Part shown: positions 1,470 through 63,215 of the stretch, piece after piece
Layout of the letters: every line of letters starts with the position of its first letter
Position numbering within the stretch: the first letter of the stretch is position 1
NCBI GenBank assembly: GCA_946811185.2
Contig: OX328110.1
Span: 9,838,516 to 9,902,515 of the forward strand
From: Hippopus hippopus
Taxonomy: Eukaryota > Mollusca > Bivalvia > Cardiida > Cardiidae
Length of the DNA stretch: 64,000 nucleotides
Direction: 5' to 3'
The notes under the pieces: generated by a model
Database searches by the model: none
What the model saw: only the letters and a program-made list of their open reading frames with translations
Told to the model about the DNA's origin: nothing
Translations under genes and position numbers: made by a program

Positions 1470-2024
1470 TGTTACGGGAGATCACTCCTTCATGCATGGC
1501 TTCGTCCTGATTTAAATACAATACCTGACAACTGCGTTAGGGAGATATCTCTTTAGCTCAGTGGTTATGGTATTGGTCTTTTAAACCTCGAAAAACGAGG
1601 ATATTTGCCCGTCATGGGTTCGAATCCCGCCAGATGCGGTTTGTACTGCCATGCATTTGTTAATTTGCTTCTTTGTTACGGACTTTGTTCGTAAGATGGG
1701 GGCTCGTCCGGGATTGGCCATTGAGCGGACATTTGTTGTCTGAAAAATAGACTTACTGCCTAATAAGGCTTTGAGTCATCAATAAATGATGACTTTAAGA
1801 AGGGGTGTGTTACGGGAGACCACTCCTTCATGCATGGCTTCGTCCCGATTTAAATACAATACCTAACAACTGCGTTAGGGAGATATCTCTTTAGCTCAGT
1901 GGTTATGGTATTGGTCTTTTAAACCTCGAAAAACGAGGATATTTGCCCGTCATGGGTTCGAATCCCGCCAGAGGCAGTTTGTATTTCAGCTCTGCATTTG
2001 TTGCGGACTTTCATGTTCGTTAGA
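1470..2024 (+). mobile_element. TRIM-like miniature LTR element with tRNA-like LTRs
   Basis: LTRs at 1470-1696 and 1808-2024 begin TGTTACG and end CGTAAGA/CGTTAGA, so the ends are imperfect inverted repeats. Position 1697-1714 is TGGGGGCTCGTCCGGGAT, the primer site complementary to tRNA-Pro known from gammaretroviruses, directly abutting the 5' LTR. A purine-rich AAGAAGGGGTG (1797-1807) abuts the 3' LTR. ACTG flanks both sides (1466-1469, 2025-2028) as a target duplication. The interior is only 111 bp and has no ORF, so it must be mobilised in trans. Each LTR contains a tRNA-like segment with intact A and B boxes. Confidence 0.85.
1545..1634 (+). other. tRNA-like Pol III promoter inside 5' LTR
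   Basis: A box TAGCTCAGTGG (1554-1564) and B box GGTTCGAATCC (1617-1627). The loop CTTTTAA resembles a tRNA-Lys(UUU) anticodon loop, but its stem does not pair, and a CCTCG-AAAAA-CGAGG hairpin sits where a variable arm would be. Not a working tRNA. The same segment recurs unchanged in the 3' LTR (1883-1972) while the LTR tails differ. Confidence 0.75.
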
Positions 2025-3711: not shown

Positions 3712-4180
3712 CTAAACCTTAAGCTGCTAAGTACGACTCAGTGCTCTTTTATGGACAGTGTAGATCAAGGTCAGATAAAGGTCAGACTGCAGAAAATGTC
3801 CTTAATTTATGTATTAAAGCTGTACTAAGCCAGATTTTGACCCCAGGTTTTTTGGGGGGTTTTTTTTGGGGGGGGGGGTGGAGGGGGGGGTGAAAATTGG
3901 TAGTTTTTGAAGAAAAACCAAGTCAGATTTTTTATTCTGATACTGTCTAAATCCTAAGCTGCTAAGTACGACTCAGTGCTCTTTTATGGACAGTGTAGAT
4001 CAAGGTCAGACTGCACAAAAGGTGCACTCTGATCTTGTGCAGTCTGATCTTGAACCTACACTGTCCGATACGATAATTTTTTTTTTCCCGGCGATAAGCA
4101 CATTGTAAGATCAGTGCCACGAGATATACTATTGGTTGCAAAACTTTCATTCTATTTATTTAGCAGTTTAACGGTTGATT
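3712..4180. mobile_element. MITE family B interrupted by a T/G-run repeat
   Basis: An 80-bp piece (CTGCTAAGTACGACTCAGTG...) appears twice, at about 3710-3785 and 3945-4015, on either side of a poly(T)-poly(G) module. Best read as an insertion with duplication of the left half. Confidence 0.65.
3790..3925 (+). repeat. Poly(T)-poly(G) repeat module, copy 2
   Basis: Same flanks as copy 1 but the tract alternates T and G blocks; lies within a family B MITE. Confidence 0.75.
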
Positions 4181-4502: not shown

Positions 4503-7500
4503 GTAATGTATTATATACCTATAATAGAGTCATGCTCTGTGAAAAGGGTGCTTAATGCATTTACGAAAAAGTATCGACCCAGGTCAGCCTGCGCAGTCCG
4601 CGCAGGCTGACCTGGACCGAAACTTTTCGCTGTTGGTCAATTTTCTGTATGTCCAAGGGCCAGTGTACCTCATAAATTAGTCTGTTGTTTAAAAAGGTAG
4701 CTATTATGGATCGATTATTATGCGATGGCTTGCTTGGTATTATGTTTCACAGAAATGCATTAAGCCCCCTTTTGCCAGAGAATGGCTTAAATATTTCGGC
4801 TCAAATGCATGAATCACACTGGATAAAATCCATATCTACACATTGTTAAATACGGTTCCAAATATGGTATCATGGTGTAAATCGCGAGTGGACTGCCTTT
4901 ATATTTGTATCTGACTTGAACGGTCAAAGTGTTACGATATAATATTCTTTCGCCATCTATCGTATATCGGCCGAAGTTATACAAGGTCGTAAGAGCAATT
5001 TCTCCCTTAACTACAATGTTTTCATACATGTAGGTGGGCTGCAACTGTTATCAACAGAATGTAATAACTTAAAGAATTTCGCTATTGTTGTTCTTTTCTT
5101 GTACATGTATTTAACCCCGTTTACAACATTATATCAGTTATATCGCCAGGACCAGACTAGTTTTAAACCCTGTGCGCTCGTTGTCGGCGCATATCATACT
5201 CTTAGAATATTCAACCTGTCTGCATCATCATCTCTTGTACAAGAGAAAATCAATACGCCGCTAATAAAGTAGCAATGGAAAAAATGGCTATAAACAATAC
5301 ATCTGTGGAAAAATGTAGCGTGCTTTTGGCTCTAAATATCTTGAAAATCTAATTATTTCAAAAGGGAAAATGTTTTTACAAATACGATTGTTTTACGGCA
5401 CATCTTCGAATACAGTTTCTAATATAGACTTTCGGAAAACCAGGGTTCGTGCAAGGTTTTTCCACAGAGATATCAACAAGAAGTCTCTGGGCTTATACAG
5501 AGGCTATTAACCAAGCCTGTAGGGGCTGTCTTAATAAATGGCCGGTGCATAGGTTACATGCTAGCTGATCATAGGTAAATGAATCGTAAAAGGTAGCGTT
5601 TTACTGAGTAAGCATTTAATTTATTTTGAAATTCAAAGTAACGGTTGTCGTTTTGAAAAGTAGTCCGGTTCTGTACCCAGAATGCCCAAATCAGATAGAT
5701 GTGTATTTGAAGAATGCCATCAAGCGGAAGATAATGCCTGTGCGTTACTGACTGAGCAACCAGGCGCGGATTGGCTTACATACTTACTTCCACGTTATAT
5801 ATAACAGGTTATAACAGTCCCCGGATGAAGGATAAGTATGGAATCTCTTTACCAAACGTCAGAAAAATCTCTAATGCCGTGTTTACCAAAGATGACGAGG
5901 ACGCAGATAAAGATGAAGACCCCGAGTTTACCTCACTGGTGATGACAATGTCTCAGCTTGCCGATCACGATATCACAATGACGCCGACTATCAAAGGTAA
6001 CATGTTTTTGAAACTTTAATATTTAGGCTGCCAAGCGCGATCTCAGCGCTTTTTCAGACAGTGTAGATCAAGATCAGACTACACAGAACGTGCAGTCTGA
6101 TCTTGGATCTACTCTCTCCAATACTATGAGTTTTTCTCGGCAAGAAAAGTCTTTGATAATGTTATATTTTATATTTTAATATAGGCCGAGAATTCGCACA
6201 CATTTTTTTTCAGCATGTTTAGAGTTAACCCATTTCTGTTTAGGCTTATTTTCAACAAGTCAAAAGTGAACATGAAGAACTTAAAAAGAGCAGTTTTTTT
6301 ATGGAACAGAATGTTACTTCATTGAATATGAACAATGAAATGATATGAATGCAAAAACATTAGAAATACTGTCTGAGAAGAGGAAGCGATGCATAGATAA
6401 AACATAATGTTGAGGAAATTTCATGGCTACATACCTCTTTGGAAGTCGTATAATTATAATTATGCAAGTCATTTTGAGTAGAAGACTTTGCAAGCAACTC
6501 TTTCAGAAAGAATTAATTTTATTCTTTGCTTTTCATGCATCTGGAACTACTTTTAATGGGGCATTTGTTTGAAGCTTTATGATGTTGATCGACTTTATAA
6601 TCTCTTTGAATACTCTAAACCTTGTGCATATTTGGTAAGAAAATGAACAAGTCTCTCGAGACAGTGCGATATTATCAGGACATGCACCGTAACTAGTAAA
6701 GTAAAAAAATAAACATCAACTAGAACTGATAACATAACAAGAGTAAAAAGTGAGAAACGAAAGCCTGAATATGCTTCTTCGACACTGCATCGCAATGATA
6801 TGTGCTCCTGTTAGTGGAGATGTTTGCATTTGATTGTATTTCTTACATGATGCTATTGATTTTTGTTTAAGACTCGTCCCGCTAGTAAGACTAAACGCGC
6901 CTTTAATTTGAAGACTTCCACCAACTGAAATAGGAAGTATTCATCCAGCCTACCGTTCTAATTCTAAATTCCTCCTCGGAAAATAAAATGCTTGTTGTTT
7001 GAAAATAAATTCAGAACTGAATTTGAAATAGATGGGGAATACGGCCAACAGCCCTCTCGTTTAAAATTGCGCATGCTAAGCATATGTACCACTGTTTTTG
7101 TCTTTAACTTTCTCAGGACATCTCTCTTCTGTCTCTGTTTCAGATAAAGATGGCAAGAATATTAACTGCTGCACCAATCCAAATCATGATTGGTAGGTTG
7201 AAATAGCGTTTTCATTTACTTACTGTTCTGAAATAAAATAAGACCATCTTTTTTATGAATAAAGTATCATTTACTACAACTGAATACGTTTACTATGTTG
7301 ACCCAAAGCTCTGACAGCTGCTTGTTGTCCGTCTGATTGGTGGACAAAAAGGAAGCATTGGAAGCCTACTAAAACCTTCATTATGTTTAAATAAACAACT
7401 GAATGAATATCTTTAGTTGAAACATATTTATTTTACATCGACTGAGAAACAAATTCTTGAAATTTATACCAAGCGCTCTCGATTCTGCTTCCTGGGACTA

Positions 7501-12885: not shown

Positions 12886-15800
12886 AAAATAATACAAGGC
12901 AAATAAAACTTTAATAGTAAACATAAACAACTACTTAAGATTTTTTTTGACATAAACAATATATAGGCAAGCCAATATATGAATAAATAGAAGGTAGATT
13001 TACCTGTTAATGCCGTCTTGAATGATACTTCGAGCCTCACATTGCCCATTTTCACCAATGATAGATATTCTCCGTGCTGAGGAAAGTTGGGTTCCAACTG
13101 AAAGGCGAATAATGTGGAAGCGCTTATATAGTGCCCTCTGTCCAGAAGATTGCCTCCGAAAACTAACGAAACGGTCATATTCTGATTAAGAGACAGCTCT
13201 AAGCTTCTCTGGGAACCTATTATTGTTTCTTTTTCCAGCATGTTTGATTGGCCTAGTCAGTAAACTGCAGAGCTTAAAACTCGCGAATATCATCCATGTA
13301 TCTTGTTTATTCAGTATCTTTTCGTGGGCTTTGTATTCGAATGTAAATCAAGTACATGAAGTAAGGGCCTTTGTTGGAAAGAAAAAAAAAGGATATTTCG
13401 CACGACATAGTTTAATGAACTTCAGGTTATCTCAAATCTATAATTAAAGTAAGTGTTACCGTCTTTCGGCAAATTGTTTTCATGGTATTTATCACTAGGG
13501 TAAAGAAACCGCAGTTAAAGTCTTGGGGTCACTGTCCTGTTCAATGTTTTTAAAAAAGTCTATATCTTTTCATAGTAATATTTTTTCATAAGTCTTTGAT
13601 CTCAATGGTAAAGAGGGAGGTGTAGGGGGATTCCAAACCATCAGGGAAAGTTCCTGCAGGTCGAAACTGGCATAACCAGCAAATACACCTGTTACAAAGT
13701 TTTGGTCTCGAGCAATTACATACGATTAATTTTCACCTTTTCCCACAATGTTTTCCCAAGATGTTTTCCAAAGCCGTCTCTATCCGTATTATAACCAGTG
13801 CTCATCGGGGAAAGAGTTGCCCTTCTACTGAACGATCTTGGTTTATTAAAGCTTAGAAATATTTTAAAGAATGGCAAAAATAAGTTTTAATCCGTTTACT
13901 TTGTGAATAAGGTAAAAAAAAAAGGGGAGCATTTTCTCATTGTTCCACAATACTTTTAAAGGCGTTTTACCTCAGAGTCACTAAAAAAAAAAACATCAAC
14001 AAGTTCCAATACAGAGATATTTTAACATACGCTTTTTCACGCATCTGAATAAAACTGAGTTTTGATTTTCTCCTTTTTCCCACAATTCATGCCTTCTGTA
14101 TGGCAAATAAAAACAGGCTACGTCAATTGGTACACCGACCTTAATTTTAACATAGTTTTATTTTTAGAAGGGTGAACTCAATCCATCATAACGCATTTCA
14201 ATCGAATCCATCTCCAATGCATGGCGCGATTCTTTTCGACGATGTGTCGCGGGGAAAAAGAAGCGCGCGAGTTCGGGTGGGCCGATATTCTGCTGCTGCT
14301 GTCCAAAAATGTCTCGAAAGACCTGAATTCACTTGTCAACATGATATACAGGTCGCTGACCACTTGTACGGCTGGGGTGGGAGAAAAGTCGCCGATCAAA
14401 ATAACAGCCATGGCCGGGCCGTGAAAATGGGCTTTAAATCCCACATAATGTGGCGCAGGATATACTGGCGCAGGGAATAAGGCACTCAGAATTCTCAACA
14501 TACTACTAACACACACAAAAGAGAGCGCTAATCCACTTCATTTGCGAAATAAGTAGACGGTGAGACCCAAATCAGACATTACATGATGTAAGTCTCTGAT
14601 CCGTCAAACACGCAAGTTTCGCAAGTTTCTCGGCACGTTCTGTTCTCTTCTGTTCTGTTAAGGTGAAGCGATCATATATGTTCGGTTAACATACTCAAAT
14701 TTGTTTGATATGTAGGTTTCGAACTTTTCAGATGGAAAAGGAGCCAAGCTGAAGGTTGCCAACTTCAATCTCGAAGGAACCTACTTGCCTCGAAATAAGG
14801 ATCAGGAAAGTGCCTGTCTGGACGGTTCTAAAACTGTACCATTTTGTATGGTCTCAGGTAAGGCGATGCCATAAATAGTAATGAGACATGCTCTGTGAAA
14901 ATAGGGTTTAATGTATTTGCGAAAATATCGACCTACGTCAGCCTGCGCAATCCGCGCAGGCTGACCTGTACCGAAACTTTTCGCTATTGATCAATTTTCT
15001 GTATGTCAAAGGACCAGTCTACCTTATGAAACAATCAGTTGTTAGACATACTGAATTCAATGGATCCCTAATTATGTGATGTCTTGCATGGTATGATGCA
15101 TCACGGAGAAACATTATGCCCCCTTTTGCCAGAACATGGCCCAGTTTTTAACTCCTCAACAAACGGTAAGTTTTATACCGGCTATGAGGAAGAAAGCTTT
15201 TTTACCCTAAATGAAATCGCCAAGTATACTCAATGTAAATGTATATTATAATATAAAGACTCAAAAAAAAAAAACAGTTTCAATATTGCTGTGGTTAAGA
15301 ATGTCTCAACAAAGCGGACAGTGGAGATCAAAGATCAGAATGCACGATGTGTGCTGTCTGATCTTGATCTGCATTAGACGCAAATGTAACTACAATAGTG
15401 AAAGGGTTTAACTCTATAACACACAATAAAAATTTAGACAGGTCCAAATTTGAAGCAGTTTCAAACTAGAAATTAAATGTGGCACAAATAATGGAATTCA
15501 TATCAGAAAAGCTAAAAAACACTGTTGGAAATGGAGAAAATGCTGTTTACAAGCATTTTCTCCTTTTTATATTATGAAACTACAGCTTTTGTTGCAATCT
15601 GGAGGATAGCTTTAGAAAAGATTGTGAAAAAAAGAGGTATAAGCTAAAAACCAGCATTTTCTTTTTTTTTTCCCCCATGATGTTTCAATAGAATTTGCTG
15701 TCTACGACGGCTTACAAATAGAAATATATGTACATGTAAGTCTTTTTTTTGAAACAGACTCAATATTTCTAGTTTCCTGTTTTAACGACAGGTGACAGCC

Positions 15801-18800
15801 GCCACCACGTGGTCGGAAGTCTAGTTTCAGTCATTACACTGTTTCACCGAGAACACAACCGTATTGTGGACAAGCTTCAAGCCTTGCACAACCCCGGCTG
15901 GGACGACGAAAGGCTCTATCAAGAAGCGAGGAAGATAGTTATAGCCGAGTATCAGAGTATCACGATACGAGGTACGAGAGAAGATACGTTGTACTCATAC
16001 ACTCGATAACTCTTTCAGCACCAAATATATAAGCCTTGCTTCTGCAAAAAGTATCGACCCACTTTTTGCCACAAGTCAATTTTCTGCATATCCAAGGACA
16101 AGTGTACTTAATGATTTTGTCGGTTGTTCAAGAAAATAGATATTATAGATCTATAATTACATGATGACATGCTTGGTATAATACATCACAGAGATACCTT
16201 AAACCCCCTTTAATGCTTCTACCACCTTATACTTTCTATTGACAGTAAATGAGACACGCAATGTCAAAAAGGGAGCGTTATACATCTTCAAAAAGTATCG
16301 ACCGATGTCAGCCTGCGCAGTCTGCATATGCTAACATCAGTCGAAAATTGTTTCTGTTTATAAATTTTCAGCATGTTCAAGGACCATCTACCTAATGATT
16401 CAGTCGGTTGTTGGCCAAAATGGATATTATGAGCCCATAATTATGTGTTGGTGTTGACTTGCTCGATATAATGTATCACAGAGATTCATTAAACCCCCAG
16501 TTTGTCATAGCGCGGCACAAATGTGTTAAGCCGCACGGCGACCGTAGCGTATATGACTGCGGCATCATGCTCTATATAGTGTAATTACCTGTCATTCATA
16601 ACAGATCTGATCGCCGGCGTTGTTCTCGATGATGAGATTGCCAAAGAATACCACCTGAAAGAGAAGCCTGGTTACGACAACGTCTATGACGAAGACTTAA
16701 ACGCCCAAACTTCTTTGGTGTTTTCGACCGCAGGCTTCCGGTTTGGACACACCCTTGTCAATTCGTATGTATATATGTAGAGTACTGAACCCTTTTCCGG
16801 TTGTTGGATAAGAAAATTAGGTTTAATACGAGCTGTAATGAAGACATACATGTATTTGATGATAGTTAAGTATAATTTGCGGGGATGGAGTTTAGGGTCT
16901 AAGAACAGTCAGTACATGTCCTGTTCAGTCTAGCCTCGATCTACACCTTTTGCAAAATTCAACTGTTCTAAGCACTCTAAGAGTTTATTCAGATCATTTG
17001 GCAAGAATTTTAGGTGTTCAGAATGTTAAAGACTTGAACAATCTTTTCAAATGTCCTCTATAATATGTCAACATCCAGTTACAAAATTGCTGCCATGTAT
17101 CTATCAGTAAGTTACATATACTTGTCTTACCATTATAATTAAATGCTTGTTTAGGTCGTTCACGGTAGCTACTCATTGTTCCGATAATGTTTATGTCGGA
17201 AAACCAGTAGCTTAAAAATAATGCTGTGCAAGCTACAGGTAAAAGAAACTCTACGGAATATAGATAGTGTAGGTACACTTGAAGCCGAAGTAAAATTGGA
17301 TTGGTGTTGAAAACGACAATAAACACCAAACTCACAAACATCTGTCATTTAAGGATAGGGCATCCTAATGGCATTCTTGTAAAATCGCCTTTCATCGCCG
17401 AAAAAACGTACGGATTCGGCTAAGACTCGAGTAATCCGTAATCGATCGGCCGATACACGCCGATTCCCGGCATCGATTATGGATTACCTGAGTCTTTGCA
17501 GAATCCGTACGTTTTTGGCGATGAAAGACGATGTTACACGAATCTCATTAGGGTGCCCTATCCTTAAAACAGTACATGTAAATGCTCTTTGAATTTTAAA
17601 GTAATAGGAAATAGGAACTGTCTAGATCTATATTCCTTTTTTCAGAAGACACCTTCTTTGAGGCAATATCTCGAAGTAGTCGACATATCCGAATGATCTG
17701 ACACTAGATTTTTTTAAAATTTTAAAGTCTAGAACATGTGGTTAAATGTATCAACGAAAAGTATCGATCCGTGTCAGCCTGCGCAATCCGCACAGGCTGG
17801 AATAGGGCGAACTCTTTTCTATTGTTAAATGTTCTGAATGCCGAAAAACAGTCCACCTCAAGATTCATCCGGTTTTAGACAAAATGGATCTATGTTATGC
17901 GTCAACTTGCATAGTATAATGCATAACGAAGATGTTTCCCATAGCGCAGCTCAACTGATATATTTATATTACAGATTATTAGGTCAGTGTGACAAGACCA
18001 ACAAGCATGACATTGTGAACGAACCTGTACACCTGAATTACAACCGAGTACATATGTGTTTTATGAAGTCAGGTATATCTGGTATCTTGAGATATATCAG
18101 TCAGAGAGGAATGGGAAAAGCTGATGGGTAAGTCTCTTTCACATAACAGAATTTAACAGTCTTTCTTTGGCACCTGTATATGGTCAAGAAATTGTTTCAC
18201 CCCCTGTCTTTTTTACAGGGTATGATATTTTGGCGCAATCAAAACATAATGGAATGAGAATAGGACACTTCTTGAAGCATAACTTAATATAACCAGTCTT
18301 GTGACTAGAACATGAGCTCATGGACCTCATTGTATGTAAAAGTCGCACGCTCATGTTTTGCGTTCAAATCCACTTAAATACGTATACGCGTATTACAAAT
18401 GTTCGTGCGCATCCTACTCCGCATGTTTTTGTCATGGATATTGAGTGTTACGGGAGACCACTCCTTCATGCATGGCTTCATCCCGATTTAAATACAATAG
18501 CTAACAACTGCGTTAGGGAGAATTCTCTTTAGCTCAGTGGTTATGGTGTTGGCCTTTTGTCAGGGCGTTCTAGGTTCAAATCCTGCCCGGTCCCTGTATT
18601 TCTGCTATGCATTTGTTCATTTGTTTCTTTGTTACGGACTTTGTTCGTAAGATCAGTCAAAAGTGCATCTATGTATTTTTCGCCCAGATGGTAATACTAC
18701 TGGTGCACTCAAACAAGTAGCACTTTCTTCGGGTAATATTAGTAAAGAGGAAAAAATGAATCTTTGAACTGTCACCATCAAACAATTAAAATACTGTTGA

Positions 18801-28731: not shown

Positions 28732-31700
28732 CTGTAAACATAACAGAAAACAGGTCCAACCATTTGTAACCCTAAGGCAGCTACGCGCGACTCAAGGACC
28801 TTTTGCGGACAATGTAGATCAAGATCAGGTTGCACAGAACGTGCAGCCTGATCTTGGATCTACACTGTCCAATAAGGTGATAGCTTTGAAATATCAAGAT
28901 GGGTGTTTCATTATCGGCTTTAAAAGTTTCATTTAACTTATTTAGCAAGTTACGGGTTAAGAACATTTTTAGTCTTACTCTCAAAAAATTTCTATATTTG
29001 AAAGTAACGCAACTTCTGATTGCCTTAACCAAATGGTGTAGCCAATCAGAAGTTGCGTTACTTTCAAATTTGGAAAAAATGACTCAATCAGGGTGGAATG
29101 AACTCGGGATTTTGTTAAAGGTTTAACCAAGGAACTTGTATCAAGCTAATTTCTGGTTTATTCTCAGATAAAGAAATACATGTATGGTGAAAAATGTCTA
29201 CACTTAGCAACCAACAGCGTTTTCTCCTCTTTCCACAATATTTACAAAAACCTTCACCAGGATCTCTGTCAGAGTTGTTTATAAATGAGCAGCGATTTGG
29301 TAAAAGGAGGTTAGCGCGACTCCATGATGCACTGTACCATGCAAGTTATCACATAATTATGTCTAACAACCGACTGAATTATGAGGTAGACTGGTCCTTT
29401 GACATGCAGAAAATTGACCAATAGCGGAAAGTATCTGCCCATGTCACCCTGCACAGAGTGCGTTGGCTGACATGGATCGATACTTTTTGTAAATGCATTG
29501 AGCCTCCTTTTCTCAAAAGTGGTCCATTGCATCTAGGATAAAAATGAAATATGAGTGACGCTCTAGAAAAAGGAGTTTAAATTTAGAGTGGTCCTCTGGC
29601 TTCTAAAAAATTATTGCAAAATCAAAAAAGTTTGGACCCGGGTCTGACTGCGCGGAATGACAGACATGAGTCGATATTTTTTTACATTAAAAACTGTATT
29701 TCTGCAGAGCATGATTCATATTTGAGCCACGCTGTGTGAAAAGGGGGCTTAATGCGTTTACAAAAAGCCTGAAATTTTTGGTTTTGATCAATTTTCTGCA
29801 TATCCAAGGACCAGTGTACCTTATTGTTCAGTTGGTTGTGGGACATAATGGATTTTATGGAACTATAATACTGAGATGACTTGCTTGACATCAGGCATCA
29901 CAGAGATACATTAAGCCCCCTTTTGCCATATCATGACTCATAAGTATTTTAAGTTTCAAAACAGTTACTACCTGTTAATGGGAAGAAAATGGCTATTGAT
30001 ATACCATGTGTAAGTGTACTAAATCCAAGGGACTGTTTGAATCTCTCTTGACCGATAATATCTGAGAGTATCACAGCATAGGAGGAGAGGTATTGTCCGC
30101 AGCATAAACCTGCAACAAAATGATAATAAAGTATCCGAAACTCGACAATTTTCAAGTAATTAAACTTTACCCACCGGAGTTCACACTCGCAATACTCCGT
30201 TCAATAGTCGTCAGTTTTGACGATCATGTTCGGGAAAGTTCGAGAGCAGTCGGCAGTGTGTATTAAATACTGAAAAGGGACAAGTGATGTCGACGAATTT
30301 TATCGATCTATATATATCTTCGACAAAAGGACTCAAAGTCCTGGGTACGTATTTACCAACCATTCTTTGTCTTATCCTCAAAAATTTTCCAAATTTGAAA
30401 AAAACACAACTTCTGATTGGCTAAACCAATGGGAGGGTGCGTAAACCTAGGATAAAAATAAGAATGAAATCATCGATAATTAGTGAATACGGACCATGAA
30501 AAGCAGAATTGTTGAGCAGTATTTAGCAGTGCTATATGTCATAAGGGAATGAACAATAAGTTTTTTGTCCATTTTATATATATATTTGACTGAAATTTCC
30601 TCCTGAAATAAGCAGGGGAAAGGGAAAAAATATTGCTTAGGTCGTTGCCTTTATGAGCAGTTGCAACATGTAATTGATTCGGGTGAATAATTTAAAGCCA
30701 GTCAATCAATCGCGAATTCTGTTTGTATCAGATATAGTGTATATACGGTAACGCTTATAGTGATGCTCTGGAGTATTTATAACCTAAACAATACATTGGA
30801 ATGCATGTAGCGAATGCGTATATTACAGTTTTTGGTACCAGTCAGAATAATCACAGTAATCTCTTCGATTTATTGTATTATTCGAACAAATTGACATGAA
30901 ATAAATGACCTCCATACCATATATTACACGCTTGAATTACTGTCCAAACTTAACTTCGGCTAATGTCGTCTGAATGCGGAAAGATGAACGATTTTCAACT
31001 GTTAATTTGGCTAACAGATTTATCGTGTCTTTAAAGGGTACTAAAACTACCTGAAATAAACATGCTATTGTTGGTTTAAATTGGTAATACGTGGCAGATG
31101 ACATTCATCTAAGATGCACTTTCTGTGCAGTCTGATCTTGACCTATATCATCGGGAAAAGCTTTTTTTTTTTACTATGGCACTGAAAAGGTCAAACCCGA
31201 AATTTATCGTTAATAGAATTTCCGTACCGTCCGAGTATACGCGATGATAAAAATATTCACTCTCTAATTATTATTTGCATTCAGGTCAATTTCAGGTCAA
31301 TTTGTTCGAGTAATACTTAATTTAATATTTTGGGTTTATTTATACCATGTTTATATATACCATGAAATTGTATGACGTACTATTCGCACAGTTTTGGTAA
31401 CATAATTCCATCACCTGAGGCCTCAAAACTTATAAACCCCGTTCTACTCTTATACGTATGGATCAAAATTTTGCAAACAAAAATTTCAGTTCGTAACAAT
31501 AGGGAATGGTATAGTCTTACCACAGAAAAGCATACAGAGGAAGATGACTAAACATACAGACAGCGAGGCAGATAAAAAGACTAGGTATTCCTCGTTCTCC
31601 ACCCAGCTGTCAATGTACGGTCGAAATTGCTGTATTTTACCCAGCGTTTCATATTTCAGGTTATATTTACTGTATACGAAGGGAATGAAATATCCTTGTC

Positions 31701-33600
31701 GCCACTGTATTAGGGTCCGGACAACATGAGTAACTAGACTGGTACAAATGTCAAATTTCTAACTTTATTATTTACAGCCGATCTCTACTTTCGGTTTTTA
31801 TCCCGGAATGCGTACGAAACTACAATTAATCAAAGTACATTAAGTACTTCGACCTAAAGCGAATCAAAGACCTAAAATACTCAAATTGATAGCATTAATT
31901 CATGGCCTTCTGTAAAATCGTGTATCCAAGCGTTTTGTATGCAATTTTAGATGTTAGAAAAGTTGTTTTAGGCGTAATGACAGTAGTTTTTGGTAGTTTT
32001 CGAGTGGATTTTGGGTGCTTTGGGGTGTTTCTTTTACTGATTCATCTGAGGCGTACTATATGAACTAGGTCATGTCAAAGCTGCGGAACGAGACAAAATT
32101 TCAAATTTAGAGCGAGTTCTTCGATATTAACTCTGAAATTTATTGTTTATGTAAATGGCATACACTGATATTTAATCCGCATTTCATTTGTACATACCAA
32201 ATGACACAGACGCGTCTGTTTATTGATCTATGAGGACCTATTTTTCTTGAAACTGAGGTGTAATGCGTCATCTTGGGGAAAAGGTCTGTCGGTTGGCATA
32301 AGAAGGTGATGATGACGTCATCACCTTCTAAAAATCAGACAGGTAGACAGGTAAGTAAATAGTCAGAAAACTGAGGCTTCATGTGGCATGCAGGTGAAAC
32401 TCCAGTCTAAGTAAAAGACTTACTCACCTACGATAACAACGAATATAATCATCGTCTGAAACGATTTTATGAAACGCACGAAGTGACATGCCGTTCCTAC
32501 GGTGAGGAAAGCCACGCCCACAATGTTGTTTCTCTTGATCCATTGCCGGTCTGCGACCACTCCCATTGAAATTCTGGAGACAAAGTCCACAGCTGCCAAA
32601 ATCGACACCAGTAGACCAATCCGCTCATTTGGAATCCCTATTTCGTTTGCATATGTTGGTATGAAAATTGGTATCAAGCCAACGGAAGAGACGGCACAAA
32701 AAGCCAGAATGAGAAAATACAAGAATGAGACATCTTTCAGTAAGTTTAAATCAAATACTGTTTGTAATACGGATATAAAGCCACTATAAAACCATTGACA
32801 AAACGTTCCCTTACTGTCTGTGACGGTTTTACTGGGTTCCTCGACAGTCAATGGTGAGGCACCATTGACATCGACAAAGGAACCACATACAGCGTCTCCA
32901 TTAACATAGATACCCATCTGTGACCTGGATAATGACAATATAATACTACTAAGTTTAGCTAAACTTCCGCCATGTTTTGTATCCGATAACTCTCCTTTAC
33001 TACCCGTTTCTACTCGTCTTGCTCCTACAGAGTTAGCCCTGATCCTCTCCACTACCGGTGATTCATTTCCTCGAAATTTCATCATGCTTGGATCATGTGA
33101 CACCATTCTTCGCAACTCAAAATTTGTTCTTGTATATACTGGAAAATGCCTTGAATCTTTCATTTCTAAATTATCTATAGACTTCTCAGATGGCTCTGAG
33201 CTTATACTGTTCTTATCTGGGATTTTGTTGGTTGCAACTTGTTCATTAATGATTTTCTCTTTCTCCTTACTCATGCTGTTTTCTCTTGCAATTGATCTAC
33301 GTTTAGTATAGAATTCTGGAGGTCTCATCAATGCTGCCGCGACAAAAATATTAGACAGAAGTCCTGCCACAATAAGCATAGTTCCTGTGAACCCATATTC
33401 CTCAAATAACTTTATTACGATCGGGGCGAAAACCAAGCCGCCAACAGACGCTCCGGATGTAAATATACTGTTTGCCAAACCTTTGTGTTTCACGAAATAT
33501 GTTCCTAACATGACAAGCATGGGTGGGTGTGTACACGATAGGCCTATCCCTGAAAAAGAAATAAGTATATTTGGGTTGAATGATACTTTTACTTTTTATG

Positions 33601-37357: not shown

Positions 37358-37567
37358 TAACCCTTATCCTGCTAAATAAGTGAAATGAAATTTTGAGCCG
37401 ATAGTAAAAACCCAAATGTTGCTATTTCAGAGATATATCTTGGGGGACAATATGGGCTTATCGGACAGTGTGGATCACAGATCAGACTGCACGGTCTGAG
37501 CAGTCTGATCTTGATCTATACTGTCCGCAAAAGGTCAGTGAGTCCCGCTTAGCAGCATAAAGGTTAA
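37358..37567. mobile_element. MITE family B
   Basis: Ends TAACCCTTATCCTGC and GCAGCATAAAGGTTA; core palindrome nearly perfect. Confidence 0.8.
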
Positions 37568-37954
37568 AAACAGTATTGTATTGTTACTTGTTAAATGTAT
37601 TACCGGTTTTATAATCCACTTGTTTTGCGAAAACGTGGCTCAATGTATTATGATATCATAATTGGTGCAAGATCATTAGTCCTTAATCTTGACCGACATT
37701 GCTAGATAAATAGTTTAGTTATCAAGTAACCGGTACGCTATAATCCGCACGTTATCATTTTCTCTTTGCCAACACTGGACTGTGAGAAACCCAAGCTGTC
37801 TCATTGTAAATATCCACTAAAACTAAAGTTATTTCTGTGGAATACAGGGACATTAAAGCAAACTGTTCAGAAAGCATATTCAATTGCGTTATTATTTTCA
37901 AGAACTGTGTAAATGTCAAAGTAACGTAATTTATGATTTACAAAACCAAAGTCG

Positions 37955-39360: not shown

Positions 39361-39573
39361 TAGCCCTTAGGCTGCCACGCGCGACTCAAAGACCTTTGCG
39401 AGCAGTGTAGATCAAGATCAGACGGCACAAAATGTCCCGTCTGATCTTAGATCTACACTATCCATTAAGGACATAATTTTCCCAAGAAAATACCTTGTAA
39501 ATAGCAACCCTTGGGTTTTTAGTATTGCTTGAAAGTTTTAATTCACTTACTAGTATTTAGCAGCTAAAGGTTT
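39361..39573. mobile_element. MITE family B
   Basis: TAGCCCTTAGGCTGCC to CAGCTAAAGGTTT; core GATCAAGATCAGACGGCACA. Confidence 0.75.
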
Positions 39574-40829: not shown

Positions 40830-43800
40830 CTAAAAAAGATCAGATACTGACATACAAATACAGCAAGCATTGAATGAGTCTTCAGATACCCTTTCAACTC
40901 TAAATTTCAAAGTAACACAGATCTTGATTGGCTAAAGCAAAATATGATGATTTAGCCAATCAGAAATTGCGTTACTGTCTAAATTCAGATTAAGGCTGAG
41001 GAATCAGTGTAGAACGATTGTTGAGAACAGACCGTAGCATCCTTGTGAGTGAATATCAAATTCAGTAAGCAGACTCGTGTAGTCTGAGCTCGGGGTTCTC
41101 TGTTCAATACTCAATTATTCGGCGTAGCTGGCTTTTGACCTACTTTTTGGCGCTGATAACAAAATTAATGAATAAATAAACATTTGTTATTGGTAAAAAA
41201 TGTAGACATCTTTATTCTAAGGGCCACTGTGGTAAAAAAAAATAGACATATTTATTCAAAGGGCCCCTTCCTATCATTTTGCTGGCAAATTTACGCCGTC
41301 TTTTTAAAAATATTTCTTATCATTGTATCATTTCTTATTTTAATACTGATGTAAAACTGACAGATAGCTGCTCCCCTTTTTTTACGTTGTCTCAGAGACA
41401 TAAATGTAAAATTGAACGACCAGGTCAGCCTGCCCAGTCCGCGCAGGCTGACCTAGGTCGAAACCTTTTAGCTATTGGTAAATTCCTACCCTGTCCAAGG
41501 ACCATTCTACCTTATAATTTAGTCGGTTGTTGGACAAAATGGATTTAGTGGATCACAAATAACATGATGAATTACTTGTATAACACATGACGGAGATGAT
41601 GCCAACTGTTTCTGTCAACACGGAGATTTGGGGTCACGATGTTTTCATTTCCTTCAAATCTATAGCCTTCAGACTGCCCCCCCCCCCCCCCCCCCCCCGC
41701 CTTCGAAACGTGATCCCCGATTATCACCCGTGTTTTGAGTTGATTCTTTTTATGCAAGACGCTACAGAGCCTTGGCATAATACTAGCGAAACCCATACAC
41801 AAACGAATGAGTAGGCTGTCGCCGTAATATGACTGCAGTAATATACTTTTTCGTTATAAGAGATTTGTCATATATTAATAAGATGACTAAAGTACTTAGA
41901 TCAGAAAAGACGGAACAATAAACGATGGTTACCTGTTATTGGCACTATTATTCCGATAGAACCACCTTGTACTAAGCAGGTAAATCCAAGGGCAGCCTGA
42001 AAGAACACACATTTTCAATTTATAACTTAAGTGTTGACCAGATGACAAAAATTTCAGATGCAATAGAAAGCATAGCAGACGACAAATTAAAAGTGATTCA
42101 TATTGTGTAGTTTGTCTTGAAATCGAGGGCAGCCTGAAAGAATACACCTTTTCAATTATTTTTCGCCTCTCACCTCTGATGCATGTGAGAAAAGTAATCA
42201 GTGGCTGTGGAAAGAAAGTTGTGTCAGTACTGGTGTGAAAAAGCCAGGAAACACATGGGTGCGTCACTGACCGCCATGATATGACCTAAGCTGTTAAATT
42301 GACGTTAAACTCCAATACAAACCAAACCAAACCTTTTCAATTTATACATGGACGTTTACTAGATCTCAGAATTTCAGACGCATCAAAACTGAAAGCGTTT
42401 ACACATCCGACAAATTAAAATTAATTCAAATTATATTGTTTGTCTTGAAACCGGGGAAAAACATTCTTGGAATAAAGGAGAAATCTTATAACCAGCTGTT
42501 TTCCTTTTCACAGTGTTTTAAAAGCTTTCTTCCACAGGTTAGCAAAAACACGGGACTGTTTGGTAAAGAATTGATTATAAGCCTAATTTAGATATTAGAA
42601 TGTAACTTTTAGGCCATTCAAACATCTTAAGAATGTTCTATTTGGCAGATTGTTTCACAAAACTGTGCATTGTATCCTAGAAGTAGTAGCGACATCTGTC
42701 AAAAACTATGAGCCATGCTCTGTAAAAGGGGGCTAATGTATCTGCTAAAAGTATAGATTATGTCAGCCTGCCAAGCTCGCGCAGGCTGACATGGGTCGAA
42801 ACTTTTTGCTATTGGTAAATTTCCTGGTCTACCTCAGGACTGGTCTACCTTATGATTCTCTCGGTTTTTCGATAAAATGGATATTACTGATGCATAATTA
42901 TATAATGACTTACTGACATCATGCCTCACGGAGATGCATTAAGTCCCCTTTTGCCAGAGCATGGCTCATATGGCTTGCAACACGTGAAAAGGGGCATTCG
43001 GACATTTGCGTAATGTGTCGTCTCGGATCAGCCTGCGCAGTCCGCGCAGGCTAATCCGAGACGGCACTTTACGACTACATTAGATTTTGTGCTACAGTAG
43101 ACTTGTGCAAAACAGAAAAATTACATAAAAATGGAAAGTGTCGTTTCGGATTAGCCTGCGCGGAGTGCGCAGGCTTATCCGAGAAGACACTTTACGCAAA
43201 TGTCCGAATGCCCCTTTTTGCGTGTTGCAAGCCAATTATAGATGTAGAGGAGGAAACCAGATGAATATTTTCTTTTTAACGCTGTAAATGGTAAACAGTA
43301 AGCTATTGAACAAAGTCTAAGAAAACTAGAAAAAAAGGTTTGTGTTCGTGAAGTCAAAGAATCTTTCACTTATATACATCCACGGCAACGGTGCTTTAAC
43401 CTTTAATAACGGTTCTACACAATTCTGTTATTGGGTCATGCTCTGTGAAAAACAGTTGTTTTAATGTATCAGCAAAATGTATTGACTCATATTAGGCTGC
43501 GCAGGCCGCAGGCTTACCTTGCTATTGGTAGTTTTTCTGAATGTCAAAGACCATTTTACCTAATGACTTAAAGCTCTGGGTTCTAGATAAAATGGGTCGT
43601 CATAATGCGACAAAGTGCCTGGTATACCCACTTTTCCTAGGGCGCCACAAAAGTTTTGTTGGTAAACCTTCCTAATTTGAAATATCTGCAGACAGCAAGT
43701 GCAAAATTGGTTTACATGTATATGAGCTTAAATTATATGACAGGGTAGAAAACATTGTGGGAAAAGGAAAAATGCTGGTTGGCAGCATTTTCTCCTTTCT

Positions 43801-46800
43801 TCGCAGAATTTCAAAAGCCTTCCTGGTCAGGAGTCACAAAATCTAGGAATTGTGAAGGAAAAGGTTTTTCCCCCACAAACACTTGTCAAGTAAAAACAGT
43901 TGATAAATGTAATTACGTGAAATTTTTATGAACTTTAGTCACTTATTGTACTTGAGGTTTAAGTACATTTCATTTTTTCAGTGCCATCTCCACTCAGACT
44001 ACAAAAGTAGAACAAAGAAAGTTTTTTTTTAAACACTTAATCAAAAAGGATTCAAATACTGAAATTTCATGGCCATTGTAGTCCGGATTTTTCAGATTTT
44101 TCTTTTTTTTGACAGTGTAAATTGTAGATTAAACTAAATGATTTGGATGTACTTTTCTGGAGCTACACTTTTCTCAACAACAACTTATACAGGGTAACCA
44201 ACGAGTCAGTAATACTGATCTTACCTTAAACTTTTCAAACTCTAAAAACTCCAAAATGAGGACAGCAAATAAGCTGAAGTAAACTCCCTGTAAAAAGCCA
44301 GTGAAAATGGAAAATCCCATCAGTATCCAGAATGAATTCATGAAATATAAGAACTGGCTGGCAATACCCATAACTAGTGCACACATAGCAATTAACGAAG
44401 AATGTTTTATCCATTTCTTATCAGCAATGAAACCAAATACAAACTTGGACAAAATATCTGCTAATGCATTTGCACTCACAAGCATTGCAACTCTGTCATC
44501 GTCCACACGTACGTCAAAAGCATGAGGTGCGATGTTTGCCCCAATCAGAGCGTGTCCGGGACAAAGAAACAAGGTAAGAATTAGATAGTATTGAAACACA
44601 GGCATCTTTATCACCTCCATATCAAACACACGGTGTATCAGTCGCCAAACGAAGTCACAACGTGTTTTGAGAGTTTCGGTGGTTTCTAACGAATCAGTCT
44701 TTTGCCTATGGTCGTCAACATGTTTAGATTCTGTGATATCGAGTAAAGAGCTGCAGATACTATAGCTGCTCCCATACATAGCTATGTCTGTTTTACGGAA
44801 TAAGTCGGGTGATAGTGGAACATGTGTGGACTTCTGAGGTTTAACACTTGCAGAGTCAAGTGATCGCACAGATCGTATTTGAACATCCATATTGTTATTC
44901 AGCATTCTGTCTGACTCCCGTGCATCCTCTGATTGGACCATTGGCAATTCAATACTCTTCTTGACATTATCAAACGATTCAACGGGTCGCATCAGTGCAC
45001 CAATAACCGCTATCTGCGCGTGTACACCAGCACATATTATATATGTTCCTGTGTAGCCATAAAACTCGAAAAGTTTTGTGTAAACTGGAGCAAGAACTAG
45101 GCCCCCTACACTTACACCTCCGTTACACAAACTATTTGCCAGACCCCGGTATTTGACAAAATAGCTAGTAAGGATGACTAATGTGTGCGGCTGTATGAGA
45201 GCATTGGCAGCACCTGGAGAAAGAAATATTAAGTCAGAGACGAACGGAGTACCATATAACTTTCTACAGAACAAACCAATACTAGAAAAGCATTTCTGCA
45301 AAATCTTGGAAATGAGAAAGAAAGAAAGAAAGAAAGAAAGAAAAAATGTACCTTCAAATTTCTTCTTCTTCTTGTAGGCAGACAGTATGTACCTTGATTT
45401 CCCTTGTTTGGTTTTATGGTTCTCCAAATCATTTTTTAAACAAAACGGGTCATTGATATTAAAGATGGACTTGGTAAAATGAACATAAACTCATTGTTTG
45501 ATGTAGAACAAGAATATCAGTAAAACCGGAGGATAATTCCAAATGTGTGATTAATCAATCCAAGTCATCAGTAAAATACCTAGGGGCAACGTTAGATCAA
45601 AGCTTTACAGTTGAATCCATGGCTCACTCTGTTATCAAAAAAGCAAACAGTAGGTTAAAGTTACTGTAGAAGGTTTGAGCAGATTGTTCTATGCTATGGT
45701 TTTAAAATCGAAAATGGATTAGCCCCAGAGTACATGTCTCAAAATTTTACTATGTCAGGCAATTTACATGAGTACAACACACGATCTAGTGAGACTGGTG
45801 CTTTTGTACTGCCAAAGGTGAAGAGCTTTGGCATGAAGTCCTTTTCATTTGCAGGCTCCAGCTACTGGAAAAAAAATATCTCCTGAAATTAGAGCTATCC
45901 CTAATCTTTATGCATTCAAGAGAGCAGCAAAAGAACATTTTTTTTTTTGTTGTAGTTAATGTAGATATTATGTCAGAGAGTGTGTGCAACCTGTTTTTGA
46001 ATCTAAACTGTCTGCTTTATTTCAAACATTAATAATTTGAGGTTTTTAAGTCCTAGAATGTGATACTCAAGTCTTAACTATGATATGTACAAGCATCTCT
46101 GTGATTTGTCATTTTCCTAAAATAGTATTCGGCCTTCCTGTTATTTACTTCAGCATTTTGCATAGATCAAAATGTTTGTCTTTTAAAATGTTTCATTCCC
46201 ATGTCTCTCCATGTCGGACCGTCAACACTTAAGGACCATAATGGAAATAAGGGATCCTTTCCCTTTTTTTTTTTGATATCCTTGGTGCTGATGTGCCTAA
46301 TATGGTTCTATGCATTTCAGTCACATTTGATTTTTTATTTGAATATGTTGTGTGCTACTGTTAAAACCATATTATGTACCTTCAGTGCTAAATAAATAAA
46401 TCAATCGATAGATAATGATATTGTGGACGCACGGACGGGCAGACAGCCCAGCGGTTTTACGTTCCGCCGAAATCTGGTCGGGCAGTACAGAACCGAGTCA
46501 TTGATTATGTGAAAAGGGAAAACAATATTTTATGACACCAAAATACCACTTTAAAGCTACACACCTATACCAATTCCTAGTACAATACAAAGTACAACGA
46601 TGTCCTCAGTCAGAGCTGTTATAAGATACATTGTAACGGACATACCAGCTCCGATCATAATCATCAGTCGACCACTGACTGTTTGCCCTATGTTCATTAC
46701 CAGCAAAGCTGAAATAAAATAACAAAATATATGTAATGTATAAGGCAGTGCATTTCAAGAAACATGAAAGTTAGCCTCGATTTTCGGAATAGATTAAGTG

Positions 46801-57085: not shown

Positions 57086-57137
57086 AAGACACACTCGGTA
57101 ACATACCTATTCTGTTTTCAGATTTCAATCGAGCAAC

Positions 57138-60100
57138 ATGGACGCTGTGGCTGAAATAATGGACGTTATGATAAACTCTTATACGGATCCGGATGAGCTT
57201 ATGGACTTTGCAACGACCATGGGGATCCAGGATTCCGTGTCTGTAAGACTTAGACTTTTCCAGCTGAAACAACAGGAATATGATAATGAGTTTATCGAAG
57301 AACAAATGGACTTGGTGCTGCAAACCCTAGGTGGACGTATCCAGACTCCGGTTACTTTTAACGAGGAGGACATGGTCGTATCGCTAGAGTATGTACAAAT
57401 ACAGGAGGAAATTGATGGAGCTGTCAAAGCCCTTCTTTTTGATGACGATATGAACGAGACAGCAAGGTTGTGTTTGGAAGATGGTGATTGGGACGATCCA
57501 TTTGTTCAGACAGGGGGAGGGGAAGAGCCACGGGCGGGACCCTCCGGTCTACAGAACGATCTTTTTGATGACGATATGAACGAGACAGCAAGGTTGTGTT
57601 TGGAAGATGGTGATTGGGACGATCCATTTGTTCAGACAGGGGAAGGGGAAGAGCCACGGGCGGGACCCTCCGGTCTACAGAACGACAACAAACTGAAATA
57701 CACAATGAGAAAGAAGGACACCCGCACATATGCCAAAAATGCAGCAATAGATACAACATATCAAGTAAAATTGGATGAGCGGTACAATGGTCAGCGGTTA
57801 ATAGACGTGAGGCAGGGACTTCATGACATGATCCAGGCAGCCCTTAACGAGGCCCGAGGACACCTACAGGGGAATGATCTAGGTCGTGTCGTGATATATC
57901 ACGATGCTTTGCACAACCCTGTTGTCGTCCCTTTACAGAAGTGGGATACCCTTGACGCTAATAGAGTTATGGAGATCCTCGAAAAGGTACTCAATAGTAA
58001 CCAGGAACTTTCGATCGATGAGACCTTTGATATAATAATAGGGACCATTGACCTACCTAAAGGAGGCAAGCGAAAACATATCATACGTATTAAAGGTGAA
58101 AACACTTCATTGGATTTAAAACGCTCGGTAGTGACTATTGAGAATGAAGATAAAATGTGTATGGCAAGGGCCATTGGAGTCAGCTGGGCAAAATTAAAGA
58201 GGTGTACCAAGGAAGAATGGGAGGAGGTAACGAAAAACAGACAGGGAAAAAGTAGCTTGGAGTTGGTTTTAGAATATCAAAAAGTCCCCTTGTCTTACTA
58301 TAACGACCTTGTCAAAAAGAAGAAGAAACACCAAGGACAGCTGGCAAGGGCTCTGTGTAAGATGGCAGGCGTACCCATAGACCGAACAGCTAGTCTCAAC
58401 GATGTGGAGGCATTTGAGGAAATCCTAGGAGTACGCGTGATGGTCATCAGCGCTCGCCTAGGCAATAAATTTATTACTGGTCCTAGCAGTGACGGGCGTC
58501 CCTGTATCTACGTGTACTTGGTGGACGACGACCACTTTCATGCCATAACAAACATCACTGGGTTTTTTAGCGACTCCTATTTTTGTGAAAAATGTCTCAA
58601 ACACTATAGTAATAGGGAATATCACCAGTGTGCAGAAAAATGTATAGTGTGCAAGAGGGACCACTGCCCTAAAACGAACAAGAGTCTGAGGTGCACAGAT
58701 TGTAACATGGACTGTAGGTCAGATGATTGTTACAAACAACACAAGAAAGTACCCTTACACAAAAATGGAAGGAGAAAAGGTCAACCCAGTGGGCCTTCCC
58801 AGTGTGAAAAGTGGTGGAGGTGTTTCAGGTGTTACAAGGTACTAAGGACGGACATAAGGAAGAAGGAGGACCATGTGTGTGGGGAATACTTTTGTAAGAC
58901 TTGTAAAAAGTATGTGTTGGACGATCATCAGTTCTATTTAAGAGCGAAAGAATGTAAGGACAAGTTTATACCTAAATATATATTTTTTTATTTTGAGTGT
59001 AGTCAGGATGATATGAGTGAGTGCGAGAATGGATACATACCGCAAAAGAAAATAGAATGCGCAGATTGTCAACCATCACAGGTATGTAAGTCTTGTTCTA
59101 AGTGTAAAAACTGCAACACGTCATGGTGCGGTAGAACTACGCATCGTCCCAACTTTGTCTTAGCTCATTCGGTATGCCCAAAATGTATTGACAATGAATT
59201 GACTGCCAAATCAGTATGTAAGAGATGCGGTAGCCGTTGTAAAAAATGTCAAAAAAATCTGGATGAGAAAGATTTGGGACCTTGTCCAGGGACATGTGGC
59301 TTTAGAGAAGTCACTTTCCAGGGACATGATACTGCTGAACAGTTTGGGCAATGGTTATTTACGGAACAACACGAGTACTGCAAGGTGGTTGCTCATAACA
59401 TGAAAGGTTATGACGGTTACTTTCTGCTAGAGTACCTCGTTGATCAGTCATTACGGCCAGACAAAATTATTTACAACGGGTCCAAGATAATGTACATGAC
59501 AGTAGAGCGAGACTTACATATCAAGGTAATAGACAGTCTTAACTTCTTACCCATGAAACTGTCAGCATTACCCAAAGCATTTGGTTTACATGAATTGAAA
59601 AAAGGGTGGTTCCCACATTATTTTAATACCCGAGAGAATCAAAATTATGTTGGGCCCTACCCTGATGCTAAAGATTATGGTTACGATTTCATGGGTGAGA
59701 AAGAAAGAAGCGAGTTAGTAGAGTGGTTGAAACAGAGACAGTGTGAAGTTTTTGATTTTAGAAAAGAGATGTTAGAATATTGTAGAAGTGATGTTGATAT
59801 ATTGAGACAAGCATGTTTGAAATTTAGATATTTGTTAATGAATGCAACGGGAGAAGAAAAAGAGGTCATAAATGGAAAGGGAAAGACTGAAAAAAGGTGG
59901 TTTGGGGCCGTAGATCCTTTCGACAGTGTTACGATTGCATCAGTATGCATGAATGTGTTTAGAAGTAAATTTCTAGAAGAAAAGTGGAAGGTACAATTGT
60001 ATGACACTGATGAATGGATCCCAGCCAAACTATGTGAGGGAGTATTGTATGTACTGGTGAAAGATGAATGGGTGAGTGCAGCAAAATTGAAAGTCAAGGG

Positions 60101-61913: not shown

Positions 61914-61935
61914 TGTAATTTTTTTTTTTTGTTCG

Positions 61936-62157
61936 TGGGTTGTTCAATGTCAATCATTTTTCAAAAAAAGGTGTTAGTCATTTTTCAAAAAGTGTCACTC
62001 ATTTTTCAAAAAGTGTCACTCGTTTTTACGTTTTTATACTTTTACAGGTAAATTCCCATAGGGTCTGTTTCAAAAAGTGTCACTCATTTTCCTAAAAGTG
62101 TCACTCATTTTCAAAAAAGTGTCACTCATTTTCTTAAAAGTGTCGCTTATTTTTCTA
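61936..62157 (+). repeat. About 21-bp minisatellite between polB and next gene
   Basis: Roughly eight units of GTGTCACTCATTTTTCAAAA in two groups separated by about 60 bp. The GTCACTCATTTT core is the constant part. It fills nearly all of the space before the next promoter-like motif, so it may be regulatory or a spacer. Confidence 0.85.
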
Positions 62158-62203
62158 GATACCAACTGTTGTTTATTTTATTTGTTAACGTGATAATTGT
62201 ATT

Positions 62204-62211
62204 GCTTATAA
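62204..62211 (+). promoter_or_regulatory. GCTTATAA promoter-like motif, unit 1
   Basis: GCTTATAA followed by AT, 59 bp before the membrane-protein ATG. The identical octamer precedes the next unit (63199). An AATAAA (62211-62216) overlapping its 3' side may end the polymerase mRNA. Confidence 0.45.
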
Positions 62212-62269
62212 ATAAAAAATTGTAAGAATGAGTTTCTTTTTGTGTTTTGAGTTAATCTAACGTAAGAAT

Positions 62270-62530
62270 ATGACAGAAACTCCCGAAAAAGAAACGTTTT
62301 TACGTTTCCCTAAACCTGACGAAGAAAGCCATAGTGACAAGTGGCATTTACTGGGCACCCGTGTCCCCCAAGCAGAGATTGTCTACTTTTGTCAGATGAT
62401 CATAGTGTACATCATTATTATTACGTCCATCATTAACCTATCAGTGCAAAACGGGTCGACCGAGCTTTGGGTATCACTCTTGAGTAGCAGTATCGGGTAC
62501 GCTTTGCCTAACCCTAGACTTAAAAAATAA
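62270..62530 (+). CDS. Small membrane protein of the virus-like element
   Basis: 86 aa. A polar N terminus (TETPEKETFLRFPKPDEESH) is followed by two hydrophobic segments (about 38-57, IVYFCQMIIVYIIIITSI, and 66-78) and a short basic tail. Probably a virion or host-membrane component; the family is not named here. Its stop TAA shares the A with the ATG of the ATPase (TAATG at 62528-62532). Confidence 0.75.
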   Translation: MTETPEKETFLRFPKPDEESHSDKWHLLGTRVPQAEIVYFCQMIIVYIIIITSIINLSVQNGSTELWVSLLSSSIGYALPNPRLKK

Positions 62531-63183: not shown

Positions 63184-63190
63184 GAATGGA

Positions 63191-63196
63191 AATAAA
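63191..63196 (+). terminator. Poly(A) signal after ATPase
   Basis: AATAAA 8 bp downstream of the ATPase stop and just before the next GCTTATAA, so the two units are packed end to end. Confidence 0.45.
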
Positions 63197-63198
63197 TA

Positions 63199-63206: not shown

Positions 63207-63215
63207 GAATACAAT

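Follow-up and report, generated by a model that had tools for sequence, protein, structure and literature searches.

TRIMs with tRNA-derived sequence in their LTRs were named Helenus by Kojima in 2024 (PMC10886601). As described in the main sections of that report, animal Helenus elements have 4-bp target-site duplications (TSDs) and Gypsy elements as their likely helper, and the hallmark boxes read TRGCY..YGG for A and GGTTC for B. The same sections report 51 bivalve families with tRNA-Pro among the bivalve primers, list molluscan families from Pteriomorphia only and use tRNA-Lys-TTT for molluscan Helenus in a figure legend. They state that Pol III-promoter transcripts have been reported for Cassandra, and do not demonstrate active Pol III transcription of Helenus itself. 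In the accessible parts of the literature, Helenus or TRIMp3 was named beyond PMC10886601 by a meeting report and an unrelated genome report, and a search for newer mollusc work returned none, its terms being narrow enough to miss PMC10886601 too.

The window, by which we mean the whole 64-kb stretch of DNA analysed, contains an element that spans 1466-2028 together with its two ACTG duplications (1466-1469, flanking the 5′ LTR, and 2025-2028, flanking the 3′ LTR). We consider it very probable that this element is a TRIM (a non-autonomous LTR retrotransposon) belonging to the Helenus kind, for which we infer a Pol III RNA, a Gypsy helper and an exchange of modules. The 5′ LTR (LTR5, 1470-1696, plus strand, 227 bp) has an L-type tail and a long (63-nt) A-to-B spacing; the 3′ LTR (LTR3, 1808-2024, plus strand, 217 bp) has an S-type tail, and 111 bp of internal region (1697-1807) lie between them. 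A direct-repeat scan recovered a 178-nt repeat (1468-1645 and 1806-1983) with 97% identity. The 18-mer primer-binding site TGGGGGCTCGTCCGGGAT (1697-1714, plus strand), whose isotype we take to be tRNA-Pro, starts at the first base after LTR5. In six frames the 555-bp element contained no gene, the longest stop-to-stop frame being 64 codons. The paired LTRs, the 18-nt primer site touching the 5′ LTR, the ACTG duplication and the lack of an ORF, all claimed in an earlier note on this DNA, were thus found as claimed. The polypurine stretch claimed to touch the 3′ LTR was present as the purine run AAGAAGGGG (1797-1805, plus strand; the other copies shown usually have AAGAGGGGG), but the dinucleotide TG separates it from LTR3, so that it does not quite touch. 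The internal region also contains an AATAAA about 25 bp upstream of the 3′ LTR, and a TATA-like TTAAATA (1512-1518, plus strand) begins 35 nt upstream of the tRNA-like part of LTR5. A second copy in the window is a single LTR (18446-18652, plus strand) with an L tail and a short (43-nt) A-to-B spacing, its A box starting at 18530; its flanks, TGAG and TCAG, agree at three of four positions.

The tRNA-like segment of LTR5 (1547-1636, plus strand) is degenerate, scoring 15.2 bits against the Rfam tRNA model RF00005, below the cut-off of 29. It contains the A box TAGCTCAGTGG (1554-1564) and the B box GGTTCGAATCC (1617-1627), both on the plus strand, and the only T4 run of the 5′ LTR (1579-1582, plus strand) lies at the anticodon-loop position CTTTTAA. 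By analogy with LTR5, the segment of LTR3 was placed at 1885-1974 (plus strand), with the A box at 1892-1902 and the B box at 1955-1965. The two boxes are 63 nt apart in each LTR of the element and about 43 nt apart in the single LTR. When the combined A+B pattern was searched on both strands of the window, it matched three places, all at the same position within LTRs of the family, against an expectation of 0.025 (one match in 40 first-order Markov sequences), which bears out the claim that each LTR has both boxes. ARAGORN called no tRNA in the 64-kb window, and the single LTR gave no Rfam tRNA match, as was the case for most of the loci scanned. The sole ARAGORN call among 10 loci scanned was tRNA-Lys(ttt) in the 3′ LTR of L018, where the Rfam score was 23.5 bits, again below 29. 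Among 55 LTRs compared, CTTTTAA was present in 50, the strict A pattern in 42 and the strict B pattern in 44, and the long insert between the boxes bears a Lys-TTT-like anticodon loop.

Comparison with the described systems places the family of the window element in the Helenus kind, known since 2024, an assignment made through described features. The family consists of short, gene-less, two-LTR TRIMs with box A and box B in the LTRs, a primer site and a polypurine tract, 4-bp TSDs, repetition in the genome and a primer site like that of a Gypsy element. It resembles Helenus, as set out in the main sections of PMC10886601, in TRIM size, the Lys-TTT-like tRNA segment, the tRNA-Pro primer, the 4-bp TSDs and the Gypsy helper. 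It differs in exchanging two inserts and two tails as modules and in having a helper candidate that resembles the TRIM in its LTR end besides the primer site; circulating modules with unlike LTR pairs, and a likeness to Gypsy-like LTR ends, are absent from those main sections. The earlier note had proposed an animal parallel of the plant TRIM Cassandra, moved by another LTR element, and this proved apt as anatomy: Cassandra is also gene-less, with a Pol III-type promoter in its LTRs and LTR-internal-LTR arrays (PMC7215508, in the parts available). The novelty of such a parallel was not upheld, since Helenus is of the same kind (PMC10886601, main sections).

Membership in the other groups could be dismissed. 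The promoter of Cassandra derives from 5S rRNA and the group is one of plants, whereas Rfam found no 5S rRNA match in the window or in 1440-2060, which rules out Cassandra membership. Ajax is likewise a Pol III-promoter TRIM in animals, but according to the main sections of PMC10886601 it is 5S rRNA-derived, has 5-bp TSDs and comes from two nemerteans. The biv-TRIM elements of bivalves are TRIMs of similar size that form arrays, but no clear primer site is reported for them, and the term 'polymerase III' is missing from the main text (PMC6934838). Their conserved inner segment TGATCCCAAAGGAC was not found in the window at up to two mismatches, ruling out biv-TRIM membership.

We then searched the genome (1.07 Gb in 34 contigs) for relatives. 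The whole element as query gave at least 50 places from the best 40 scored of 3367 first-look candidates, 48 of those listed being at least 449 bp long and some overlapping as arrays. Exact 4-bp TSDs flanked 36 of 45 delimited distinct elements and were absent from the other nine, in a set of loci (L001-L074) selected for resemblance to the window copy or for an S-tail junction and leaving out elements whose ends the patterns did not recognise. The length of 39 of these 45 copies was 541-583 bp. Among 20 further places sampled by L-tail junctions, nine could be delimited and eight of the nine had an exact 4-bp TSD. Genome-wide, exact L tails numbered 2218 and exact S tails 1115; exact junctions of tail and primer site numbered 827 for L and 318 for S (1145 together), and the full primer site TGGGGGCTCGTCCGGGAT occurred exactly at 1201 sites, some of them in another element. 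The patterns for tails, junctions and primer site differ slightly in length, and reversed-pattern controls gave no match except one for the S tail. The exact 18-mer was present in 37 of 71 distinct internal regions, the remainder being within four edits by design of the search. Behind the sampled junctions, a second LTR tail could be recognised for 16 of 20 of the L type and for 26 of 30 of the S type. Taking tails as twice the junctions plus single LTRs, a crude count sets the 1145 junctions against about 1040 single-LTR equivalents, so about half of the counted insertions still have two LTRs. Tandem LTR-internal-LTR arrays were found at L003, L010, L016, L017 and L027. The family thus amounts to roughly a thousand LTR-plus-primer-site copies in the Hippopus hippopus genome; pattern scans of viral contigs (two patterns) and of a set of genome contigs (one pattern) gave no matches.

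These copies bear on whether a tRNA-derived SINE merely chanced into one LTR of the window copy. Helenus itself is proposed to have arisen when a SINE inserted into an LTR (Kojima 2024, PMC10886601, main sections), which lends the idea some appeal. However, the tRNA-like part is present in both LTRs, and boxes with measurable spacing were found in 19 of 20 5′ LTRs sampled by L tail and in all 21 S-tail 5′ LTRs with a recognised start (9 of the 30 S-tail places had none), in copies with independent TSDs. For the window copy such a landing is refuted by the genome-wide copies, and we regard its probability as negligible. The earlier note had associated a SINE landing with most copies lacking the primer site or second LTR, or with randomly placed tRNA-like segments; the sampled copies instead keep the primer site, the second LTR and a constant position of the tRNA-like part.

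To compare constraint along the LTR, 55 LTRs picked by similarity to the window copy were aligned. The rarer letter had a frequency of 0.030 in the A box and 0.033 in the B box; its frequency elsewhere was 0.044 (U3 positions 1-76), 0.043 (77-84), 0.057 (between the boxes), 0.094 (acceptor-like part) and 0.123 (tail). When 13 old S-type LTRs were compared with 42 of the L type, identity was highest in the B box (0.929) and the A box (0.904), followed by positions 1-19 (0.888), 53-76 and 171-192 (0.866 each), 96-106 (0.862), 107-146 (0.826), the acceptor-like part (0.779), 77-84 (0.706), U3 positions 20-52 (0.58) and the tail (0.42). Between the subfamilies, the two boxes are therefore the best-kept segments, although their lead over some other stretches is modest.

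The sequence between the boxes behaved differently. In the L-tail sample (20 places, 19 LTRs measured) the A-to-B spacing was 38-44 in 13 LTRs and 61-64 in six, and in the S-tail sample (30 places, 21 LTRs measured) it was 61-64 in 20 and 51 in one. Two alternative inserts, long and short, thus alternate between boxes that persist, and L095 combines a short insert in one LTR with a long insert in the other. In this family, two types of LTR tail and two types of insert between the boxes are in circulation as modules, and the LTRs of a single insertion can be unlike.

Within the LTR, TFIIIC and Pol III would use the A and B boxes of the 5′ copy, with transcription predicted to start just upstream of the tRNA-like part, possibly aided by the TATA-like box at 1512-1518, and the short RNA would extend into the 3′ LTR. 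In the long type the B box usually follows the sole T4 run, which a Pol III transcript therefore has to pass without terminating. Terminators of Pol III have 4-5 T on average in vertebrates and more in yeasts (PMC8531034, in the parts available). A T3 replaces the T4 at this position in 11 of 13 LTRs of the short type; the family thus shows no common terminator, and the T4 run was rejected as a family-wide RNA end. The TATA-like box, about 35 nt upstream of the tRNA-like part, would suit Pol II also, and Pol II might transcribe the LTR from there, the tRNA-like part being a SINE relic without a promoter role. In keeping with this, a TATA-like TTTAAATA-type motif is present in 41 of 42 L-tail LTRs, and TATAAAA in 10 of 13 old S-type LTRs despite differing surroundings; the internal AATAAA and the T4 run within the long-type tRNA-like part point the same way. 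A relic, however, would be expected to lose its boxes, whereas these are best kept between subfamilies and stay while the sequence between them is exchanged, and polyadenylation at the AATAAA would presumably remove the repeat needed for strand transfer. We therefore consider transcription by Pol II alone with a relic tRNA-like part improbable, and favour use of the boxes by Pol III.

Once made, the RNA would be primed by tRNA-Pro at 1697-1714, and the purine tract would serve the second strand, as their sequences suggest. Precise LTR ends with 4-bp target duplications are a hallmark of the integrase of an LTR element; as the TRIM has no genes, this enzyme must be acting in trans. Twenty exact primer sites on contig C1, outside the listed exact L and S junctions, were picked by eye in order. 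Fifteen belonged to the TRIM with changed tails, and five (L100, L101, L110, L114 and L116) to another LTR element, whose LTR end CGTAACA is followed by GAAAT and then by the same primer site TGGGGGCTCGTCCGGGAT. Stretches 1-5 kb downstream of three of these five sites were read, and the three have protein sequence in common. Pfam identified zf-CCHC, Integrase_H2C2 and Integrase_p58_C in L120 and the latter two in L121, which makes this element Ty3/Gypsy-like; L118 had one open frame of 195 codons without a Pfam match. A reverse-transcriptase-like stretch was recognised by eye downstream of the integrase parts, with no Pfam reverse transcriptase match at 0.01, and the order of integrase before reverse transcriptase is, we presume, reminiscent of Gmr1-type elements. 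The scanned frames gave no match to the integrase core; with a zinc finger and C-terminal integrase parts, L120 and L121 possibly represent an amplified core-less derivative.

The last 30 LTR bases of this element resembled the L tail of the TRIM more than 1000 of 1000 letter shuffles in all nine comparisons (three TRIM copies by three of the five Gypsy-like copies, L tails only). The likeness of the 24 bases past the primer site was inconsistent (0-382 of 1000 shuffles), and the A+B pair was absent from the two Gypsy-like LTR end regions examined. We consider this Ty3/Gypsy-like element, with its shared primer site and similar LTR end, to be the likely helper lineage, whose proteins would copy and integrate the TRIM in trans. 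The autonomous partner with the same LTR ends anticipated by the earlier note thus has a candidate with a similar last 30 bp, but the copies examined were broken and no intact helper was found. Nine places where ACA precedes the primer site had also been considered as helpers; both that were read (L095 and L096) were the TRIM itself.

The two LTRs of the window copy (L001) are themselves unlike, LTR5 ending in an L tail and LTR3 in an S tail. Since both tails are common circulating types, the difference did not arise by decay within this copy. The same L-internal-S arrangement with matching TSDs was found in L009, L019 (read by eye) and L079, and the converse S-internal-L arrangement with a matching TSD in L074, which rules out one-way directionality. 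When sampling was blind to the 3′ tail, two of 16 elements with an L 5′ LTR ended in S, and one of 26 S-5′ places was followed by an L tail, within the three-LTR array L045. Arrays with mixed LTRs were found at L010, L017 and L027. In L001, L009 and L019 the part of the LTR upstream of the tail has its nearest relative in its own partner, with none of the other 53 LTRs equally near, whereas the tails had 52, 48 and 51 of the 53 others, respectively, as close or closer. L030 also has unlike tails, but 47 of the 53 others are as close as the partner, so that its LTRs are not each other's nearest relatives, and in L012 and L013, whose tails match, the pre-tail parts are not mutually closest (25 and 28 of 53 others as close).

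In canonical LTR replication a single template supplies both U5 parts, so mosaic pairs need either template switching before integration or gene conversion after insertion. Conversion from other copies, with no part played by reverse transcription, would account for mosaics in both directions (L001, L009, L019 and L079 against L074), for the mixed-LTR arrays and for the same-tail LTRs of L012 and L013 that are not each other's closest relatives. Yet only the tail is foreign in L001, L009 and L019, the rest being nearest to its own partner, and a foreign tail alone, together with matching TSDs, suits an origin before integration equally well. We judge the case for conversion to be evenly balanced. 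More tentatively, the two LTRs of one new insertion may sometimes be copied from different templates, with a second co-packaged RNA or strong-stop DNA supplying the insert between the boxes or the tail (U5). Exchange of LTR modules between lineages, by whichever route, would explain how one insertion, the window copy included, can have two different tails.

The earlier note had found the tRNA-like part identical between the two LTRs while their tails differ, and had taken this to hint at selection or conversion. A run of 107 nt (LTR positions 59-165) is indeed identical and the tails are L and S, but the 3′ acceptor-like part has differences at positions 166 and 169. With five substitutions in 176 columns, such a run has a marginal P of 0.05, so that selection on the tRNA-like part within the window copy is weakly supported. 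Conversion or template switching comes nearer the mark, since the window copy is an L/S mosaic of common tails.

Other features of the window and loci were recorded. Two copies of a dispersed family of about 270 bp (316-567, 1099-1363, 4519-4787, 14880-15143, 42708-42971, 51315-51580 and others) lie left of the TRIM, and a short palindrome-like dispersed element of about 80-110 bp occurs at 750-857, 3955-4037, 6024-6123, 28766-28881, 37459-37568 and 39367-39467. Palindromic dispersed repeats at L018:1075-1144, L047:2473-2564 and L059:2416-2539 mimic miRNA precursors in Rfam, below the cut-offs; the miRNA-family matches inspected (L018 and L047 aligned) lie on such repeats outside the LTRs. An exon-like frame at 20056-20412 matches animal haem peroxidase (PF03098), and major-facilitator transporter frames (PF07690) occupy 32420-33595 and 44174-45490 on the minus strand, genes that by themselves mark the host as an animal. 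A protein search with a transporter from the window gave six matches, and the transporter at 44174-45490 has a 78% identical relative (P0001) on another long contig. A large open frame at 57102-63539 contains a DNA polymerase B domain (PF03175, matched in 60000-61499), with a Pox_A32 frame (PF04665) downstream near the window end; we take this region to be possibly a Polinton/adintovirus-like element.

With TSDs, ends and copy number as structural proof, the family independently confirms the Helenus kind at genome scale, and it offers a candidate Gypsy helper lineage for such TRIMs. Its promoter boxes persist while the intervening sequence gets replaced. If two templates do contribute to the LTRs of one insertion, LTR modules, the promoter included, would be reshuffled during replication, which would explain how the tRNA-like insert is swapped with the boxes retained. 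The mosaic LTR pairs open the route of reverse transcription in Pol III-type TRIMs to testing, and this mosaicism is the part most worth following.
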